Origin: Caenispirillum bisanense
GTDB taxonomy: Bacteria; Pseudomonadota; Alphaproteobacteria; Reyranellales; Reyranellaceae
Direction: 5' to 3'
DNA length: 34,040 nucleotides
Assembly (NCBI GenBank): GCA_945878895.1
Contig: CAMDVZ010000005.1
Coordinates: 1-34,040, forward strand
Shown: in pieces, positions 1 through 31,314 of the stretch
How positions within the stretch are numbered: the stretch's first letter is position 1
How the letters are laid out: every line of letters starts with the position of its first letter
Program-made: the position numbers and the translations under genes
Notes under the pieces: model-generated
Told to the model about the DNA's origin: nothing
Seen by the model: the letters and a program-made list of their open reading frames with translations, nothing else
The model's database searches: none

Positions 1-732
1 ACCGCCGTCAATCTCGCCATCGCGCTGGTCGCGATGGGTCGCAAGGTCGGCCTGCTCGACGCCGACATCTATGGCCCCTCGATGCCGCGCATGCTCGGCG
101 TCACCACCAAGCCGGACACCAAGGACGGCAAGACCCTGATGCCGATCGAGCGGTTCGGTCTGAAGACGATGTCGATCGGCTATCTGGTCGCCGAGGACAC
201 GCCGATGATCTGGCGCGGCCCCATGGTTCAGAGCGCCTTGCAGCAGATGTTGCGCGACGTCGAGTGGGGCAAGCTCGACGTGCTGATCGTCGACATGCCG
301 CCCGGTACCGGCGATGCCCAGCTGACGATGGCCCAGAGCGTCAAGCTGGCGGGCGCGGTGATCGTCTCGACGCCCCAGGACATCGCCCTGATCGACGCCC
401 GCAAGGGCCTCAACATGTTCCGCAAGACGGCCGTGCCCGTTCTCGGCATCGTCGAGAACATGAGCTTCTTCGTCTGCCCGAAATGTGGCGAGCGAGCGGA
501 GATATTCGGCCACGGCGGTGCCCGCGACGAGGCCAACAAGCTCGGCGTGCCCTTCCTCGGCGAGATCCCGCTGCATCTCGACATCCGCACCCACTCCGAC
601 GACGGCAACCCGATCGCCGCGGCGCAGCCGGAGGGGCCGCATGCGCTCGCCTATCGCGGCATCGCCGAAAAAGTCTGGGCAGGCCTGCACGGCGGCGCCC
701 AGCGCGCGGCGCCGAGGATCGTCATCCGGTAG
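1..732 (+). CDS. apbC: Mrp/NBP35-family (ApbC) iron-sulfur cluster carrier ATPase, 5' truncated by window edge
   Basis: Open frame from base 1; GRKVGLLDADIYGPSMPRMLG, VDMPPGTGDAQLT, and C-terminal CPKCG motif typical of Mrp/ApbC. Confidence 0.93.
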   Translation, partial: TAVNLAIALVAMGRKVGLLDADIYGPSMPRMLGVTTKPDTKDGKTLMPIERFGLKTMSIGYLVAEDTPMIWRGPMVQSALQQMLRDVEWGKLDVLIVDMPPGTGDAQLTMAQSVKLAGAVIVSTPQDIALIDARKGLNMFRKTAVPVLGIVENMSFFVCPKCGERAEIFGHGGARDEANKLGVPFLGEIPLHLDIRTHSDDGNPIAAAQPEGPHALAYRGIAEKVWAGLHGGAQRAAPRIVIR

Positions 733-796: not shown

Positions 797-1561
797 ATGA
801 GCGAACGTGGAGCCGGCCCTTCGGGGAGCGTCGCGAGTTCCCGCCCAGCCTGCCCGTCGCGGACGGCGCTGGCGGTGCCATGATCGGCCTGCGGCGAGCG
901 CGAGTTCAACGTCTGCCAGCCGCTCGACGAGGCGCGCCAGGCGAGGTTTCTCGAACTGGCGACCCGGCTGCAGTGGGACAAGCACCGGACCATTTTCCGG
1001 GCCGGCGACGCCGCGCGTCACCTCTACAACATCACCGAAAGCACGGTGTCGATCTCGCGCACGCTGCCCGACGGACGCCGCCAGATTTTCGGCTTCCTGC
1101 TGGCGGGCGATTTCGCCGGCCTCGAAGCCGGCGCGGTTTACGGCTTCGACGCCGAGGCATTGACCGACGTCCGGGCCTGCCGGTTCGAGCGGCCGGCGTT
1201 CGAGGCCTTCATTCGCGACAACGTCGATGTCGCCCTGCGCCTCGTCCACGTGGCCTCCAACGAGCGGTCCCAAGCGGCGCGCCACGAGATGCTGCTTGGT
1301 CGCAAGACGGCGCTGGAGCGGATCGCGACGTTTCTCGCCGATCTGCGCGAGCGGTCGGGCGAGCGCCACTTGCGTACCCATCCGCTGTCGCTGCCGATGA
1401 CGCGAGCCGAGATCGCCGACTACACCGGCCTCACGATCGAGACGGTCAGCCGGGTATTCGGCCGGTTGCGCGACGACAAGGTCGTGGAGATGGTCGGTAC
1501 CGGCGCGGTACGCATTCTCGATCCCGCCCTGCTCGCGGTGTTCGCCGAATCGAGCACGTGA
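797..1561 (+). CDS. CRP/FNR-type (FixK/FNR-like) transcriptional regulator interrupted by an in-frame TGA at 881-883 (pseudogene, sequence error, or recoded)
   Basis: Conserved reading frame continues upstream from 1046 to the TGA with no start codon before the conserved N-terminus: ...ALAVP-[TGA]-SACGEREFNVCQPLDEARQARFLELA...FRAGDAARHLYNI...; second domain has AEIADYTGLTIETVSRVFGRL (HTH with E--SR). ATG 797 is in the same frame upstream of the TGA. Confidence 0.8.
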
Positions 1562-1577
1562 GAACATCGACGCCGGC

Positions 1578-1591
1578 GTGATCCAGATCAA
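1578..1591 (+). promoter_or_regulatory. FNR/FixK-box-like site GTGAT-CCAG-ATCAA
   Basis: 9 of 10 match to TTGAT-N4-ATCAA, between the FNR-like gene and uspA, 57 nt upstream of the uspA ATG. Confidence 0.6.
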
Positions 1592-2482: not shown

Positions 2483-2546
2483 TCGCGAACCGCCATCCGG
2501 TATCGTCGACGTCTTTCCGGTTTGACGGGTCGTTGGAAAACTGCAA

Positions 2547-2680
2547 GCTTCCCTTCAGGCAAGGGTCACAAGGAAGCGACGACTTCCGGCCTCGTCGCCG
2601 CGATAGCGCGGCCCGCGCGACATGGATCGTCGCGCGGCGGCACAGGGAGGCAGCCGACACCGGGACCCCGATTGGTCCCG
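2547..2680 (+). promoter_or_regulatory. Hairpin-rich leader region upstream of ABC transporter operon
   Basis: Consecutive inverted repeats: CCCTT(2551-2555)/AAGGG(2561-2565); GCGACGA(2576-2582)/TCGTCGC(2592-2598); CCGCG(2598-2602)/CGCGG(2607-2611); CCGCGCGAC(2613-2621)/GTCGCGCGG(2629-2637); CGGGACC(2661-2667)/GGTCCCG(2674-2680). Confidence 0.45.
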
Positions 2681-2723
2681 AGGGGCACCGTCGCTCTGGC
2701 CGGAACGATCCGGGGGGCGGCGC

Positions 2724-3662
2724 ATGGGGCGACAGATAGTCCATCGTTTGCTGATTTCGATGCCGGCGCTGCTCGGCGTGCTTTTCCTGTGTTTTGTCCT
2801 GTTGCAGGTGGCCCCGGCGGATCCCGCGATGATCATCGCGGGTCCCGACGCCAAGCAGGAGACGGTCGACGCCATCCGCAAGGAACTCGGGCTCGACCAG
2901 CCCATCTTCGTCCAGTTCGCCAAATACATCACCCGCGTGGCCCAGGGCGACCTCGGCCGTTCGATCATCTCGAACAAGCGCGTCATCGAGGAACTCGCCA
3001 GCACGATCGGCCCGACCGTCGAGCTGATGCTGGGCGCCATGCTTATCGCTGTGCCGTTGGGTATGACGCTGGGCACGATGGCCGCGGTGCGGCGCGGCTC
3101 GTTCGTCGACCGGCTGATCATGGCCTTCTCGGTCGCGGGCGTGTCCACCCCCGTGTTCTTCGTCGGCCTGATCCTGATCCAGTATGTCGGCTTCAAGTGG
3201 GCGCTGCTGCCCTTCACCGGCCGCACCGGCCCGGTATGGGACGGTGGCCTGCCGAGCCTGATCCTGCCGGCCTTGACGCTGGGCGCCGTCCTGATCGGCC
3301 CGATCTCGCGGCTGACCCGCACCGCGGTGCTGGAGGTGCTGGGTGCCGACTTCGTGCGCACCGCGCGCGCCAAGGGACTGCGCGAGTCCGTCGTGATCGT
3401 CCACCACGCGCTGCGCAACGCGCTCATTCCGGTCGTCACGCTGATCGGTCTGCAAGCGGCGTTCCTGCTCGGCGGCGCCGTGGTGACGGAAACGATGTTC
3501 TCGTGGCCTGGCGTGGGCAGGCTGGCCGTCGGCGCGATCATCTCCAGCGATTTCCCGACCGCCCAGGGCGCGATCATGATCCTCGCCATGGCGTTCCTGA
3601 TGATCAACCTCATCGTCGACGTGCTCTACGTCTTTCTCGATCCCAGGGTGCAACGCGGATGA
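2724..3662 (+). CDS. ABC transporter permease, DppB/OppB family
   Basis: MGRQIVHRLLISMPALLGVLFLCFVLLQVAPADPA; FVRTARAKGLRESVVIVHHALRNALIPVVTLIG EAA loop. Confidence 0.94.
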   Translation: MGRQIVHRLLISMPALLGVLFLCFVLLQVAPADPAMIIAGPDAKQETVDAIRKELGLDQPIFVQFAKYITRVAQGDLGRSIISNKRVIEELASTIGPTVELMLGAMLIAVPLGMTLGTMAAVRRGSFVDRLIMAFSVAGVSTPVFFVGLILIQYVGFKWALLPFTGRTGPVWDGGLPSLILPALTLGAVLIGPISRLTRTAVLEVLGADFVRTARAKGLRESVVIVHHALRNALIPVVTLIGLQAAFLLGGAVVTETMFSWPGVGRLAVGAIISSDFPTAQGAIMILAMAFLMINLIVDVLYVFLDPRVQRG

Positions 3663-4546
3663 GCGTCCAGGCCGTCTCCGGGGAAGCGCCGGTCGAAGCG
3701 GCGCGCGCGCCGTCCGGCCGCGCCCACGTCCTTCGACGCCTCATGCGCGACAAGGTCGCGTTCGGCGCCGCCACCGTTCTCGGCGTGGTGATCCTGGCCG
3801 CGGTGTTCGCTCCGTGGGTGGCGCCGTTCGATCCCTACCTCACCGACCTCTCCAAGGCGATGGTGCCCCCCAACGAGATCAACTGGCTCGGCACCGACAA
3901 CACCGGCCGCGACATCCTCAGCCGCCTGATTTTCGGCGCCCGCAACACGCTGATGATGGGCCTCGTGGGCGTCCTGATCGGCGGCATGGTGGGCGGCACG
4001 CTCGGCATCATGGCCGCGTTCTACCGCCGCCTCGACGGCTGGATCATGCGGCTGGTCGACGTCATGCTCGCCTTCCCTGCGATCCTGATCGGTCTGGCGG
4101 TGGCCGCGATCTTCGGCGCCGGTCTGACCGCCGTGGTGATCGCGCTGGTGGTTGCCGACATCCCGGGCACCGCGCGGGTGTCGCGCGGGGCGGCAATGGG
4201 CGTCATGGGCCAGGAGTTCATCGAGGCCGGCCGCGCCGTCGGCGTGTCGGACTTCACCCTGATCTGGCGCTATCTGGCGCTGAACTGTGTCTCCACGATC
4301 TTCGTGTTCCTCACCCTGCGCTTTGGCCAGACGATCCTGGTCGGCTCGGCGCTGGGCTTCCTCGGCATGGGCGCGCAGCCGCCGACGGCCGAGCTCGGCA
4401 TGATGGCAGCCCAAGGACGCGACTTCCTGTTCATGGCGCCGCACATCGCGACCTTCCCGAGCCTGGCGATCTTCATCATCGTGCTGGCCGCCAACCTGCT
4501 GGGCGATGCCCTGCGCGACGTGCTCGACCCGAGGCTCCAGACATGA
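3659..4546 (+). CDS. ABC transporter permease, DppC/OppC family
   Basis: ATGA overlap with previous gene; PFDPYLTDLSKAMVPPNEINWLGTDNTGRDILSRLIFGARNTL motif. Confidence 0.94.
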   Translation: MSVQAVSGEAPVEAARAPSGRAHVLRRLMRDKVAFGAATVLGVVILAAVFAPWVAPFDPYLTDLSKAMVPPNEINWLGTDNTGRDILSRLIFGARNTLMMGLVGVLIGGMVGGTLGIMAAFYRRLDGWIMRLVDVMLAFPAILIGLAVAAIFGAGLTAVVIALVVADIPGTARVSRGAAMGVMGQEFIEAGRAVGVSDFTLIWRYLALNCVSTIFVFLTLRFGQTILVGSALGFLGMGAQPPTAELGMMAAQGRDFLFMAPHIATFPSLAIFIIVLAANLLGDALRDVLDPRLQT

Positions 4547-6111
4547 TCCGCTCGCTCCTCGCCGCTCTCGCCGTGTGCGCGGGCACGGCCGGAGCCGCCA
4601 CGGCCCAGACGCTCAACCTCCTGCGCAACATCGACGCGCCGCACTACGACCCGGCCCGCACCTCCTCCGGCGCCACCGCCGAGATCCTCTTCATCGTCGG
4701 CGACACGTTGCTGGGGCTCGACTACGACCTCAAGACGGTGACGCCGCTGCTGGCGAAATCGTGGAGCGTCAGCCCGGACGGCAAGCTCTATACTTTCAAG
4801 CTGCGCGACGACGTGACGTTCTGCTCGGGCCGCAAGCTGACGGCCGCCGACGTCGTGTTCAGCTTCAAACGCGTGATCGACAAGGACATCCGCTCGCCCT
4901 TCGCCTGGCGGATGGGACCGGTCACGGACATCCGGGCGCCCGATCCGCTGACCGTCGAGTACGAGCTGGAACAGCCATTCGGCGAACTGCCGCTCCAGCT
5001 GACCAATTTCCACGCCACGGTCATCAACCCCGAGAACGTCGCGACGCTGGGCAAGGATTTCGGCGTCAAGGGGCTCGACGGCACGGGACCCTATTGCTTC
5101 CAGTCGTGGGAACCGCGCTCCCAGGTCGTGGCGACGCGCCATGCCGCCTATCGCTGGGGGCCGCCCCTCTACAAGAACGCGGGGCCCGCGAAGTACGAAC
5201 GCATCGTCTGGAAGATCGTGCCGGAGGAAGCCGCCCGGCTTGCGGCGATGGCCAGCGGCCAGATCGACATGACCTACTCGATGCCCGACCAGTACCTGCC
5301 GCAGCTGGCGAAAATCCCGACGCTCGAGATCCTGCGACCGGCCGCCGACTTGCGGCTGTTCTATTTCGGCTTCAAGGCAAGTCGCCCGAACGTGTCGGAC
5401 GTGAAAGTCCGCACGGCACTCAGCATTGCCATCGACCGGAAACAGATTGTCGACGCGATCTATTTCGGCAACGGCGCGCCGGCGTCCACCTATCTCCATC
5501 CCAACACGCCGGGCTTCGATCCCGCGACGTCCACCCATCTCGGACGCTACGATCCGGCCGGCGCGGCGAAGCTGCTCGACGAAGCCGGCTGGGCGATGGG
5601 CGCCGACGGCTTCCGCTACAAGGACGGCAAGAAGCTGACCTTGCTCCTGTACGGCTTCGCCGGCGGCCGTTCGCCCAAGATGGCCGAGGCGGTGCAGGGT
5701 TTCTGGCGCAAGATCGGCGTCGACCTCCAGCTCCAGATGTGGGACGGCACCATCGTTTTCTCGAAGCTGGCGCAGCAGGACTACGACATCTGGTCGATCG
5801 CCTTTCCCTATTCGAGCGCCGGCGACGCGCTGCGCCTCTACTTCCATTCGACCAACATCCCGACGCCCAACCGGATGAACTGGAAAGATCCCGCGACCGA
5901 CGCCGCCCTCGATGCCGGCGGCAGCGCGCTCGACGAGCAGGCGCGCTTCGAGGCCTTCGCGAAGGTCCAGCGCATCGTGCACGAGAACGCGCTGTGGGTT
6001 CCGGTGGTGCACGAGGGGCTGGCGCTGGTCGTCAACAGGCGCGTGAAGAACGCGCGTGCCCACCATGTCTACACGTCGATGATCTACAAGGCGCTGGACA
6101 TCTCGCCGTGA
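4543..6111 (+). CDS. ABC transporter substrate-binding protein, family 5 (SBP1)
   Basis: ATGA overlap with upstream permease; signal peptide [61 protein letters not shown]. Confidence 0.94.
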   Translation: MIRSLLAALAVCAGTAGAATAQTLNLLRNIDAPHYDPARTSSGATAEILFIVGDTLLGLDYDLKTVTPLLAKSWSVSPDGKLYTFKLRDDVTFCSGRKLTAADVVFSFKRVIDKDIRSPFAWRMGPVTDIRAPDPLTVEYELEQPFGELPLQLTNFHATVINPENVATLGKDFGVKGLDGTGPYCFQSWEPRSQVVATRHAAYRWGPPLYKNAGPAKYERIVWKIVPEEAARLAAMASGQIDMTYSMPDQYLPQLAKIPTLEILRPAADLRLFYFGFKASRPNVSDVKVRTALSIAIDRKQIVDAIYFGNGAPASTYLHPNTPGFDPATSTHLGRYDPAGAAKLLDEAGWAMGADGFRYKDGKKLTLLLYGFAGGRSPKMAEAVQGFWRKIGVDLQLQMWDGTIVFSKLAQQDYDIWSIAFPYSSAGDALRLYFHSTNIPTPNRMNWKDPATDAALDAGGSALDEQARFEAFAKVQRIVHENALWVPVVHEGLALVVNRRVKNARAHHVYTSMIYKALDISP

Positions 6112-6164
6112 TGTCCGGAGCCCGCTACGAACGCAAACCAGGGCGGCGATACAGGGAGGCGACG

Positions 6165-7733
6165 ATGCGCAGGATGTTGGTTGGCGCCCTCGTGGCGGTC
6201 GGGCTCGTAGCCCCAGCGGCCGCGCAGGCCCAGACGTTGCGGATGATGAAGTCCATCGACGCGCCCCACTACGACGGCCAGCGCACGACGTGGGGACCGA
6301 CGTCCGACGTCGTCAACATGTTCCAGGACACGCTGGTGGCGCTGGACTGGGACGGCAAGACGCCGGTTCCCTATCTCGCGAAATCCTGGACCGTCAGCCC
6401 CGACGGCAAGCTCTACACCTTCAAGCTGCGAGAGGACGTAACCTTCTGTTCGGGCAAGAAATTCACGTCCGCGGACGTCGTCTATACCTTCACGCGCCTG
6501 AAGTCGGAGGCGATCAAGGGTCCCTTCGCGTGGCGCGCCGGCACGATCAAGGAACTGCGGGCGCCCGACCCGTACACCGTCGAGTACGAACTCGTGGAGC
6601 CGTTCTCCGAGTTGTTGCTCCAGCTGACGATGTTCACGAACTCCATTCACAACAAGGACAGCGTCGAGGCGCTCGGCAAGGACTACGGCATTAAGGGCGC
6701 CGACGGCACTGGCCCGTGGTGCTTCGACACCTGGCAACCACGCACCGAGATCGTGCTGAAGCGCCACGACGCCTATCGCTGGGGACCCTCGCTCTACGCC
6801 AACAAGGGTCCGGTGAAATTCGAGAAGCTGTCGATCAAGATCATTCCCGAGGATTCCAGCCGCGTGGCGGCGATGATGTCGGGCCAGTTCGATCTGACGA
6901 CGCAGTTTCCCGCCCAGTTCATCGCCCAGGCCAAGGCGGCGCCGACGATCCAGGTGCAGCAGGCCAATCCGAATTTCCAGTTGCTGTACTACGGGTTCAA
7001 GACCACCCGGCCCATGGTCTCGGACCGGCGCGTGCGCGAGGCGATGAGTATCGCCATCAACCGCGCCGAGATCGCGCGCGCCATCCTCCAGGGCAACGCC
7101 GATCCCGCCTTCACCATCGTCGACCCGGCCGCGCTCGATTACGCGGCGGGCACGAAGGACATCGTCAAGGAAGACCTCGAACGGGCGAAGAAGCTACTCG
7201 ACGAGGCGGGCTGGAAGCCCGGCGCCGACGGCATCCGCGAGAAGGATGGCGTGAAGCTCGCACCGCGTGTCTACTATACGCAGGCAGGCAACTCCGGGCG
7301 GGTCGCGGAGGCCATCCAGGGCTATCTGCGCAAGATCGGCGTCGACTGGCGCCTCAATCCTTGGGATTCGACGATCGCGCCGATCAAGATGGCCGAGCAG
7401 GACTACGAGATCTGGTCCGTCACCGTGCCCTATCTGTCGGCCGGCGACCTGATGAACATCTACTTCGACTCGCGCAACATCCCGACCCCCAACCGGATGA
7501 ACTGGAAGGACGCCGACACCGACGAATGGCTGCAGCTGGGCCGCTCGGCGCTGACCGCCGAAGATCGCGCGAAAAACTACGCCCTGGTGCAGGACAAGGT
7601 CATGCGCGAGCACCTCTGGATACCGGTCCTCAACATCAACATGCACATGGTCAGCAACCGGAAGATCAAGGGCGGCAAACCGCACATGATCTACCAGAAC
7701 ACGTTCTACAAGGGCCTCGACTTCTCCCTGTAG
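6165..7733 (+). CDS. ABC transporter substrate-binding protein, family 5 (SBP2)
   Basis: agggagg SD; signal peptide MRRMLVGALVAVGLVAPAAAQAQ; strongly similar to SBP1 and especially SBP3. Confidence 0.94.
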   Translation: MRRMLVGALVAVGLVAPAAAQAQTLRMMKSIDAPHYDGQRTTWGPTSDVVNMFQDTLVALDWDGKTPVPYLAKSWTVSPDGKLYTFKLREDVTFCSGKKFTSADVVYTFTRLKSEAIKGPFAWRAGTIKELRAPDPYTVEYELVEPFSELLLQLTMFTNSIHNKDSVEALGKDYGIKGADGTGPWCFDTWQPRTEIVLKRHDAYRWGPSLYANKGPVKFEKLSIKIIPEDSSRVAAMMSGQFDLTTQFPAQFIAQAKAAPTIQVQQANPNFQLLYYGFKTTRPMVSDRRVREAMSIAINRAEIARAILQGNADPAFTIVDPAALDYAAGTKDIVKEDLERAKKLLDEAGWKPGADGIREKDGVKLAPRVYYTQAGNSGRVAEAIQGYLRKIGVDWRLNPWDSTIAPIKMAEQDYEIWSVTVPYLSAGDLMNIYFDSRNIPTPNRMNWKDADTDEWLQLGRSALTAEDRAKNYALVQDKVMREHLWIPVLNINMHMVSNRKIKGGKPHMIYQNTFYKGLDFSL

Positions 7734-7758
7734 GGCACAACGAGACGGAGGCAACGAC

Positions 7759-9333
7759 ATGCGGAAATCGACGATCGCGGGCCTGCTCCTGGCCGCCCTT
7801 GGATCCGTGGCCACGACCGCGCCACAGGCCCAGACCCTGCGCATGATGAAGTCGCTGGACGCGCCGCACTACGATGGCCAGCGCACGACCTGGTCGCCCA
7901 GTTCCGACATCGTCAACATGTTCCAGGACACGCTCGTGGCGCTCGACTGGGACGGCAAGACGCCGATTGCCTATCTCGCCAAGTCCTGGACGGTCAGCCC
8001 CGACGGCAAGCTCTATACCTTCAAGCTGCGCGACGACGTGCAGTTCTGCTCGGGCAAGAAATTCACCGCCGCGGACGTGCTCTACAGCTTCGCCCGCCTG
8101 AAGGACCCCGCCACCAAGGCGCCGCTGGCGTGGCGCGCCGGCGACATCAAGGAACTGCGCGCGCCCGATCCCTACACGGTCGAGTACGAACTCAACGAGC
8201 CGTTCTCGGAGCTGCTGTTGCAGCTGACCATGTTCGGCAACGCCATCCACAACAAGGAGAGCGTCGAGGCGCACGGCAAAGACTACGGCGTCAAGGCGAT
8301 CGACGGCACCGGCCCGTGGTGTTTCGAATCCTGGACGCCGCGCACCGAGATCGTGCTCAAGCGCCACGACGCCTACCGCTGGGGGCCGTCGATGTACCAG
8401 AACAAGGGGCCGGTGAAGTTCGAGAAACTCTCGATCAAGATCATCCCCGAGGATTCCAGCCGCGTCGCGGCCATGCTGGGCGGCCAGTTCGATATCACCC
8501 ACCAGATCCCGATCGCCTTCATCTCCCACGTCAAGTCGGCCCCCAACCTGCAGGTCCAGGAGGCGGTGCCGAACTTCCAGCTGATGTACTATGGCTACAA
8601 GACGACCCGCCCGATGGTGGCCGACAAGCGCGTGCGCCAGGCCATGAACATCGCCATCAACCGGGCCGAGATCGTCAAGGGCATCATGCTGGGCAGCGCC
8701 TCGCCCGCCTACACCTACGTCGACGACCTGGCGCTCGACTTCGCGGCCGACACCAAGGGCATCATCAAGGAGGACCTCGAGCACGCCAAGCGGCTGCTCG
8801 ACGAGGCCGGCTGGAAGGTCGGCGCCGATGGCATCCGCGAGAAGGACGGCGTCAAGCTGGCGCCGAAAGTCTACTTCACCCAGGTCGCCTACTTCCCGCG
8901 CGTCTCGGAGGCTATCCAGGGCTACATGCGCAAGATCGGCATCGACTGGAAGATCATGGGCTTCGACTCGACCATCGCGCCCGCCAAGATGGCCGAGCAG
9001 GACTACGAGCTGTGGACCGTCACCTTCCCCTACATGTCGGCGGGCGACCTGCTGAACTTCTACTTCGACTCGCGCAACATCCCCGCCCCCAACCGGATGA
9101 ACTGGAAGGATGCCGACACCGACGCGGGCCTGCGCGCGGGCCGCACCGCGGTCGTTGATGCCGATCGCGCCAAGGCCTACGCCGCCGTGCAGAAGCGGAT
9201 CGCCGAGGAGCACCTCTGGATGCCGGTGATCACCGTGCCGATGTACACCACCAGCAGCCGCAAGCTGAAAGGCGTGCGCCCGCACATGCTCTACCAGAAC
9301 ACGTTCTACAAGGGCCTCGACTACTCCTTCTGA
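7759..9333 (+). CDS. ABC transporter substrate-binding protein, family 5 (SBP3)
   Basis: acggaggc [47 protein letters not shown]; near-collinear with SBP2. Confidence 0.94.
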
Positions 9334-9361
9334 GCGACGTCCCGACCGGAGTGCATTGACG

Positions 9362-10350
<989 letters not shown>

Positions 10351-10354
<4 letters not shown>

Positions 10355-11436
10355 GCGACGAACCCGTCCTGCGCGTCGAAGGCCTGACCAAGCACTTCCC
10401 GGTCAGCCGCGGCATCGTTTTCAGCCGCTCGATCGGCAAGGTACAGGCCGTCGACGACGTCAGTTTCGAGATCGCGCGCGGCGAGACGCTGGCGCTGGTC
10501 GGCGAATCCGGTTGCGGCAAGTCGACCACCGGCCGCCTGATCCTCAACCTGATGAAGCCGACCGCCGGGTCGATCCGTTTCAAGGGCCAGGAGGTCGCGG
10601 GGCTCGGCCCCAACGAGATGCGGCCCTTGCGCCGCCATCTCCAGATCATCTTCCAGGATCCCTACGCCTCGCTCAATCCCCGCATGACGGTGGGCCAGAT
10701 TCTCGCTGAGCCGATCGTCCTGCACCGGATGGCCGAGGGTGCCGCGGTCGAGGCGCGCGTCCAGGAACTGCTCGGCGTGGTTGGCCTGCTGCCCGAGCAC
10801 GCCAACCGCTATCCGCACCAGTTCTCTGGCGGCCAGCGCCAGCGCATCGGCATCGCGCGCGCGCTGGCGGTCAATCCCGACCTCGTGGTGTGCGACGAGC
10901 CGGTTTCCGCGCTCGACGTGTCGATCCAGGCCCAGGTGGTGAACCTGCTGCAGACCCTGCAGAAACGATTCGGCCTCTCCTACCTCTTCATCGCCCACGA
11001 TCTGGCGGTCGTGAAGCACATCAGAGACCGCGTCGCGGTGATGTATCTCGGCAAGCTGGTCGAGATCGCCGACAAGCGCACGCTCTACGCGCGACCGCGT
11101 CATCCCTACACCCAGGCCCTGCTCTCGGCGATTCCGCGGCCCGACCCGACCGCGCGCCCCCAGCGGATGCTGCTCGAAGGCGACGTGCCGAGCCCGCTCA
11201 ACCCGCCGACGGGATGCCGCTTCCACACCCGCTGCCCGCACGCCCAGCCGCGTTGCTCGGCGGAGGAACCCGTCCTGCGCGACGCCGGCGCCGGCCAGCG
11301 CGTCGCCTGTCATTTCTTCGAGACGATCCCGATCGTCAACGCCATCCCCGACAAGGACATCGGCGACAGCAAGTTCATGAAGCGCCTCGCCGCCTTCGAG
11401 GCAGCCAAGGCGAAGGGCGCGGCGTCTGCGGGTTGA
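10351..11436 (+). CDS. Oligopeptide/dipeptide ABC transporter ATP-binding protein (DppF/OppF type)
   Basis: GTGA overlap with previous gene; [56 protein letters not shown]. Confidence 0.95.
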
Positions 11437-22659: not shown

Positions 22660-24690
22660 TCAAGCCGCCCAGGCCGCGACGTCGAGCCAGGTGCTCTGGT
22701 AGGTGGCACCTTCGCCCATGTCGGTGTAGCGGTCCGAGACGAGCATGTTGATGGTGCCCGCCACCGCCTCCTCGTCGGGGCGCTGGCCCGGTACCAGCAC
22801 GACGCCGGGACGCACCTCGTCGACGACGCGCACGACCAGGCCGATCTCACCCTTGTCGTTGAACAGGCGCACCTTCTGGCCATCGGCGAGGCCACGTTTG
22901 GCGGCTTCTTCGGGATGCAACACACAGATCGGCGCGCCTTCGCGCTTGCGCAGGGCGCCGACGGCGGAGAAGGCGGTGTGGGCCTGGAAGTAGCCAGGTG
23001 CCGTCAGCAGACGCAGCGGCCAGCGCTTGCCATCCGTGGCTTCGACCGGATCGGGTGTCCAGTCCGGCAGGCCCGAAAGTCCCGCCTTTTCCATGTCGGG
23101 CGAGAAGAACTCCAGCTTGCGCGAGGGGGTGGCGAAAGGCTGGCCGACGATGTCGTGAACGATCGAAATCGGCTCGCTGGCGAACAGCTTCGCCTTGTCG
23201 GCCTTGCCGGCCGGCCCGGTGGCGCCGTCGAGCAGCCGCTCGGCGATCTGGCGCGGGCTCTCGCCGAATACCGCGTCGGTCAGGCCCATGCGTTGCGCCA
23301 GCGCTTGCGCCACCGCCACGTTGGAACGCGCCTCGCCCTGCGGTGGCACCACGGCCTGGCTCCACTGCATCCAGTAGGCGCCGTAGGCACGGAACAGGTC
23401 CTCCGTCTCCAGATAGGTCGTGGCCGGCAGCACGATGTCGGCGTAGCGCGCGGTGGCGTTCAGGAACGGGTCGTGCACGACCGTGAACAGGTCCTCGCGC
23501 GCCAGCCCTTTGCGAATCTTGTGGACGTCGGGATTGGTCACCGCCGGATTGTTGGCCGAAATGTACAGCGCCCGCAGCGGCGGATCGTTCATCGTCAGCA
23601 GCGCCTCGCCCAGCCTGAGGTGGTTGACCATCCGCGCCGAGGCGGGACCCGAGGGCTTGCGCACCGCGGCGTAGTTGAGATCGCACGACGCCGCCGTCAG
23701 CAACACCGCGCCACCGCCGCGCTTGCCGTAATGGCCGCTGACGCCTGGCAGCAAGGCCACCGCGCGCAACGCCTGGCCACCCCAGGTGAGGCGCGTCATG
23801 CCCTCGCCCAGCCGGATCAACGCCGCCTTCGAGCGGCCATACATCGACGCCAGCCGCTCGACGTCGGCAACGGTCAGGCCGGTGATTTCCGCCACTCGGT
23901 CCGGCGCGAAGCGCGGCAGGATCTCCTTCTCGACCCGATCGAACCCGACGGTGTGGGCGGCGACATAGGCGCGGTCGACCAGGCCGTCGCGAACGAGGAC
24001 GTGCATGATACCCAACGCCAGCGCGGCATCGGTGCCGATGCGGATCGGCAGATGCCAGTCGGCCGACTGCGCGGTGCGGCTGCGGCGGGGATCGATCACC
24101 ACGATCTTGACGCCGCGCTTCTTGCGCTGTGCCTCGGCCAAGGTCCAGAAATGGACGTTGGTCGCCATCAGATCGGCGCCCCACGAAATCACCAGATCGG
24201 AGTCCACGACCGATTCGGGATCCGCGCCGCCGATCGGCCCGATGGTCGCGTCCCACGCCGCCTCGCAACAGGTGTCGCACACCGTGCCGCCTTGCAGGCG
24301 GCTGGTGCCGAGCGCGTGGAACAGGCCGTTCACGAGGCCGCGGTTCATCAGGCCCTGGTGGGCCGAATAGGCGTAGCCGAGGATCGCGAGCGGCCCCGAT
24401 TCCGCGATAACCGCCTTCCAGCGCGTCGCGATCTCGTCGAGCGCCTCATCCCAGGTTATCGGTTCGAACTGGCCCGAGCCCTTGGGACCGGTGCGCCGCA
24501 GCGGCGTCGTCAGACGCTCGGGCGAATGCACCAGCTCGGCGTCGCGGTTGACCTTGCCGCAGGCGAAACCGGCCGTGTAGGGGTGGTCGGGGTCGCCCTG
24601 CACCCGTACCACCTTGCCGTTCTCGACGCTCGCCACCAGCGAACACATGTCGGGACAATCATGGGCGCAAACGGTCCGGATCTGCTGCAC
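22660..24690 (-). CDS. Molybdopterin-dependent oxidoreductase with N-terminal 4Fe-4S motif
   Basis: GTG start; CAHDCPDMCSLVASVENGKVVRVQGDPDHPYTAGFACGKVNRD; typical DMSO-reductase-family blocks through LFNDKGEIGLVVRVVDEVRPGVVLVPGQ. Confidence 0.95.
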   Translation of the reverse strand: MQQIRTVCAHDCPDMCSLVASVENGKVVRVQGDPDHPYTAGFACGKVNRDAELVHSPERLTTPLRRTGPKGSGQFEPITWDEALDEIATRWKAVIAESGPLAILGYAYSAHQGLMNRGLVNGLFHALGTSRLQGGTVCDTCCEAAWDATIGPIGGADPESVVDSDLVISWGADLMATNVHFWTLAEAQRKKRGVKIVVIDPRRSRTAQSADWHLPIRIGTDAALALGIMHVLVRDGLVDRAYVAAHTVGFDRVEKEILPRFAPDRVAEITGLTVADVERLASMYGRSKAALIRLGEGMTRLTWGGQALRAVALLPGVSGHYGKRGGGAVLLTAASCDLNYAAVRKPSGPASARMVNHLRLGEALLTMNDPPLRALYISANNPAVTNPDVHKIRKGLAREDLFTVVHDPFLNATARYADIVLPATTYLETEDLFRAYGAYWMQWSQAVVPPQGEARSNVAVAQALAQRMGLTDAVFGESPRQIAERLLDGATGPAGKADKAKLFASEPISIVHDIVGQPFATPSRKLEFFSPDMEKAGLSGLPDWTPDPVEATDGKRWPLRLLTAPGYFQAHTAFSAVGALRKREGAPICVLHPEEAAKRGLADGQKVRLFNDKGEIGLVVRVVDEVRPGVVLVPGQRPDEEAVAGTINMLVSDRYTDMGEGATYQSTWLDVAAWAA

Positions 24691-30725: not shown

Positions 30726-30964
30726 CGCGAAATCGATCCCCTCCCTCGCACATTCAGACACTCCGCCAGGACGGCGACAAGTCGTCAGTCGGTCATGCCT
30801 GCATCCCGTGCCCGGTCGACGTCGCCGTTCCTCGACAAGCCGGTATTCGCACGGACAGGGAGGAGCGCGTCGACGTTTCGCGCTGTCGCGAGGTGCGCGA
30901 ATCAGGCGATGCCCGCCGCTCCATCACGCCCCTTCATTTCCCCGCCCATCCGTCCTATATTGGG

Positions 30965-31255
30965 TCCGTCGGGGTAACCCGACTATGAAGATAAACGCCG
31001 CGTGGCATAGACGTTTCGGACCCGGGGGCGGTACCCGGCGCCTCCACCATTCTCCCCAAACGTTCGCGGGCGGGGCCAGCGGGGGCGACACAGGATCGAC
31101 GAGCGTAATAAAGGCACGGTTTTCTTCCGGGATGGTTCCGTCGTTATCGGGCCATACACAAGTGCCAACGATAACAACGTAGCACTCGCTGCTGCCGCCT
31201 AAACAGCGGACGTAAGCGCGGTTCGGGGGGGCACCGGGCAACAGAAGCCCCCTCA
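30965..31255 (+). ncRNA. ssrA: Circularly permuted two-piece tmRNA (acceptor piece then coding piece)
   Basis: Acceptor piece ends ...GGACCCGGGGGCGGTACCCGGCGCCTCCACCA (CCA at 31047-31049); coding piece starts GGGGGCGACACAGGATCGACG at 31081; GGGGGCG pairs with CGCCTCC (G3-U wobble); tag ORF 31164-31202 GCC AAC GAT AAC AAC GTA GCA CTC GCT GCT GCC GCC TAA = ANDNNVALAAAA; distal CCGGGCAACAGAAGCCCCC. 5' end approximate. Confidence 0.92.
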
Positions 31256-31314
31256 CTTCATTCCGGGCCGGCGCCGCGACCGGTCGACGACCGGAGCGGC
31301 AGTCGGGGCGGGTC

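Follow-up and report, generated by a model that had tools for sequence, protein, structure and literature searches.

The closest described counterparts of the regulator gene considered here, fnr, are FNR of Escherichia coli and Aliivibrio fischeri (PDB 5E44 group), FnrL of Rhodobacter (NCBIfam NF045989) and, with respect to one unusual codon, the selenoproteins that are found by Cys/Sec pairing, such as FdhG of the Reyranellaceae. The fnr product has the same Crp/FNR fold as the first of these: cluster ligands 1, 2 and 4 of FNR align with its positions 29, 32 and 128, and its recognition helix reads ETVSR where that of FNR reads ETISR. The two differ in the spacing of the N-terminal ligands, which is C-x2-C-x7-C here versus C-x2-C-x5-C in E. 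coli FNR, residue 40 thus lying two residues further on. Furthermore, unlike in the E. coli and Aliivibrio proteins, the codon for the first ligand is TGA. Of the curated models, that of FnrL matches best (142.9 bits over residues 26-247), but as this score lies under the equivalog cut-off of 300 bits the fnr product is not assigned as FnrL. Selenoproteins of the FdhG type share with fnr an in-frame TGA opposite a cysteine of the homologues and the presence of sel genes in the genome; unlike in these proteins, the TGA of fnr is common to no homologue, is followed by no discriminating SECIS and falls on a residue that is a structural cluster ligand.

The gene lies in the window, by which we mean the whole stretch of 34,040 nucleotides that was analysed. 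It belongs to a fragmented draft assembly of 4.67 Mb in 527 contigs that is 90% complete. The features of the gene are as follows:

797..1561, + strand: fnr-type regulator gene of 254 codons with one in-frame TGA, encoding cNMP-binding and Crp HTH domains, with 58-63% identity to nine Reyranellaceae orthologues
797..880, + strand: segment N-terminal to the TGA in the same coding frame, with in-frame similarity to the orthologues
881..883, + strand: TGA codon at the first [4Fe-4S] cysteine position (residue 29, the FNR Cys20 equivalent)
890..892, + strand: second cluster cysteine codon, TGC (residue 32)
914..916, + strand: third cluster cysteine codon, TGC (residue 40)
1178..1180, + strand: fourth cluster cysteine codon, TGC (residue 128, the FNR Cys122 equivalent, including by structure match)

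The frame begins with the ATG at 797 that the initial annotation had placed 28 codons before the TGA, reaches the TGA as codon 29, and then remains open until the TGA stop at 1559-1561. Its product contains the cNMP_binding, HTH_Crp_2 and Crp domains (PF00027, PF13545 and PF00325, all above the cut-offs), and thereby has the sensory β-roll of the cNMP type and the C-terminal Crp-type HTH of the Crp/FNR superfamily. The recognition helix is of the FNR type (E..SR), with ETVSR at 215-219 being invariant in the alignment. As sequenced, three of the four cluster cysteines are present (32, 40 and 128) and the first position is TGA. The cysteine pattern proposed earlier therefore holds with respect to these three counterparts, whereas the spacing of x6 given after the second cysteine was a miscount for x7. 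The earliest in-frame start past the TGA is a GTG at 1046, which is already within the sensory domain, in agreement with the earlier observation that no start codon lies between the two. As written, translation would stop after 28 residues, and given the lack of an in-frame start between the TGA and the sensory domain no functional FNR would be made.

Comparison with homologues places the TGA on an otherwise unvarying cysteine. The homologous codon is TGC or TGT in all 109 readable homologues among the loci fetched. The orthologue alignment that had been proposed as a check shows cysteine at this site in all nine family members, C29 being invariant, which bears out the original description of an in-frame TGA at the first Fe-S cysteine codon of an FNR-type regulator. 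We surveyed 75 genomes of the family and 386 of the class, 146 of which gave a match, the statements on internal stops in the class covering the matches listed. Within this scope no TGA-bearing fnr homologue was found elsewhere, and an internal TGA in an FNR match is confined to this genome. One other class genome has an internal TAG in its FNR match (among the matches listed), indicating that sporadic in-frame stops do occur in FNR genes. A scan of GTDB genomes found no closer relative; the best named matches include a Reyranella metagenome-assembled genome, so that the draft probably belongs to the Reyranellaceae.

The segment preceding the TGA also bears the marks of coding sequence. Its last 16 residues align without gaps and in frame to the nine orthologues, with a score of 22.3 versus -0.7 to -18.8 for shifted frames, and only 3 of 20,000 shuffles did equally well; the similarity is exemplified by ASSR..C..R..LA.P.S.C of the orthologue L031. 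This in-frame homology on the 5' side shows that the TGA sits within the coding sequence. The suspicion of an upstream frameshift, raised by an ARRG match in a different frame, was dropped because the in-frame alignment scores far better.

We take fnr to be the usual oxygen-responsive regulator gene of the FNR type in this lineage, and its intact product would be expected to bind a [4Fe-4S] cluster. We are highly confident that it is an ordinary fnr gene whose first cluster-cysteine codon is turned into a stop by a single base, either because of a nonsense mutation that arose recently in the strain or population sampled or because of a consensus or assembly error. The initial annotation had likewise favored mutation or error over recoding, and this preference is supported by the cysteine in all readable homologues, the want of a TGA-bearing homologue within the scope given above and the lack of a discriminating SECIS; the fragmented state of the assembly also fits it.

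Decoding of the TGA as selenocysteine by the organism's own SelABCD appears improbable to us. Selenocysteine would in this case be the first [4Fe-4S] ligand, with SelB being recruited by a weak hairpin at 891-923. A genome devoid of Sec genes, together with degraded orthologues, had been named earlier as a ground against recoding, but selA, selB and selC were found together on one contig (C173) and selD on another (C191), and ARAGORN detects a tRNA-Sec with the anticodon TCA. Hence, selenocysteine is not dismissible for lack of machinery. A selenocysteine opposite an invariant cysteine is moreover the classic signature for finding selenoproteins (PMC13188914), and fnr offers both the cysteine in its homologues and a frame that is constrained on both sides of the TGA. 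Most genomes of the family use the Sec machinery for FdhG, which was found with one TGA in 15 of the 18 relatives searched. Neither FdhG nor FdhB of the N-type formate dehydrogenase was found in this draft, so that the machinery lacks this explanation here. However, at the cut-offs applied both are also missing from the complete relative G001, which retains selB, and the missing formate dehydrogenase is thus not in itself an indication that FNR is the client.

Both selB and selC have been kept in this genome and in G001 (locus L157), and selA was detected here by family search, despite no N-type formate dehydrogenase being found. In this genome selC is adjoined by a long open frame that is integrase-like by eye (L050:5517-6893), and in G001 a phage-type integrase, confirmed by Pfam, lies beside selC (L157:5375-6694). 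These arrangements suggest that tRNA-Sec may be an integration site in the family Reyranellaceae.

The selenocysteine reading further requires a SECIS element, for which the candidate is the following:

891..923, + strand: loosely SECIS-like hairpin with the apical loop GUUCAACG (904-911), 20 nt past the TGA, not distinguishable from background

The hairpin arms noted earlier at 895-900 and 921-926 do exist, with a loop of 20 nt. We aligned the SECIS elements of the family formate dehydrogenases, which present an apical G-U 19 nt past the UGA together with a bulged U and a single compensatory pair, and turned them into a covariance model (R2). Under this model the fnr site scores 3.6 bits versus 60-79 bits for the true formate dehydrogenase sites, and 52 other places in the window outscore it; the SECIS check called for in the initial annotation thus reveals no discriminating element. 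The bulged U conserved in all the formate dehydrogenase SECIS is absent from the fnr hairpin, no Rfam family matches at the TGA site, and the RNA around the TGA is less stable than its shuffles (z +1.6). With respect to the general bSECIS rules, as quoted in PMC13188914, a permissive scan showed that the hairpin conforms to them loosely, at -14.6 kcal/mol, a stability equal to that of the family formate dehydrogenase SECIS. However, an equally good hairpin arises with 17% of random codons and with 28% of the synonymous recodings that preserve the peptide, and the cysteine-encoding orthologues L031, L032 and L036 form comparable ones, so that it does not stand out from the background. As the real formate dehydrogenase SECIS themselves reach only the 10-21% level in the same background test, the loose rules discriminate in neither direction. 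The best match of R2 in the genome (contig C140, 26.8 bits) starts with CGA, lacks a TGA and was regarded as a chance match.

On a text search, a 2026 review of prokaryotic selenoproteins (PMC13188914) shows no mention of FNR, Crp, 4Fe-4S or cyclic nucleotide. For the organism, selenocysteine insertion is possible; at the fnr site it is unsupported. If recoding were nevertheless true, an oxygen-sensing iron-sulfur transcription factor would have selenium among its cluster ligands. To our knowledge, such a ligand would be without precedent in an iron-sulfur sensor.

The position of the TGA on a cluster cysteine is also less remarkable than at first sight. In the cysteine form of fnr, 54 single-base substitutions yield a stop, nine of which create TGA; five of these nine are at cysteine codons and four at cluster cysteine codons, making the coincidence a mild one. 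Under a mutation or error the meaning of the locus is one of caution only: a Sec-encoding genome with a TGA over an invariant cysteine is insufficient for a selenoprotein call, since about half of the TGA-making substitutions in fnr would produce the same picture.

That fnr is an old pseudogene, lost in the lineage and with the TGA as one of several lesions, we consider highly improbable. It would account for the in-frame stop, and as no other Crp/FNR homologue was found in this genome at E<=1e-5 the function would be gone. However, apart from the TGA at 881-883 the 254 codons contain no further stop and no frameshift, and the remaining three cluster cysteines, the ETVSR motif and the nearby FNR box have been retained. 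Relative-rate tests give no protein rate excess for the frame (chi-square at most 1.2), the protein rate over the 218 codons past the TGA matching that of intact orthologues. Pairwise dN/dS values of 0.30-0.42 for pairs including the window gene and of 0.20-0.38 for other pairs cover a roughly similar range. An unraised protein rate and a frame intact on both sides are as expected for a very young lesion or an artefact, and we infer that the change at 881-883 is one or the other. Ordinary low-level readthrough by a near-cognate tRNA, yielding small amounts of an FNR in which position 29 carries a different residue, is scarcely credible: UGA is the leakiest stop codon and the frame past it is intact, but the inserted residue would normally not be cysteine, so that the cluster would be lost, and all readable homologues keep the cysteine.

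The surroundings of the gene include the following features:

1..732, + strand: Mrp/NUBPL-type iron-sulfur carrier P-loop NTPase, with its 5' end outside the window
1578..1591, + strand: FNR-box-like site GTGATCCAGATCAA between fnr and uspA, with one mismatch to TTGAY-N4-RTCAA
1649..2482, + strand: uspA-type universal stress protein gene, a conserved neighbor with a Usp domain both here and in L054

Perfect FNR boxes occur at or just past the fnr stop in six of the nine orthologues, and uspA is also next to fnr in L054, the relative tested. The conserved FNR box and uspA neighbor support the view that a working FNR was probably present in the lineage until recently. It is likely that uspA is an FNR target that would be regulated by the intact protein. 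Among the Reyranellaceae, an FNR box stands ahead of the next gene in L002, L003, L004, L031, L033 and L036, this gene being uspA where tested.

Elsewhere in the window, a peptide-type ABC transporter region occupies 2522-11436 on the + strand and encodes two solute-binding proteins, an OppC-type permease and two ATPases, and a molybdopterin oxidoreductase with an Fe4S4 domain and no internal stop lies at 22663-24690 on the - strand. A tmRNA gene with the tag peptide ANDNNVALAAAA, flagged with an asterisk by ARAGORN, is found at 30957-31293 on the + strand and is followed by a protein kinase gene.
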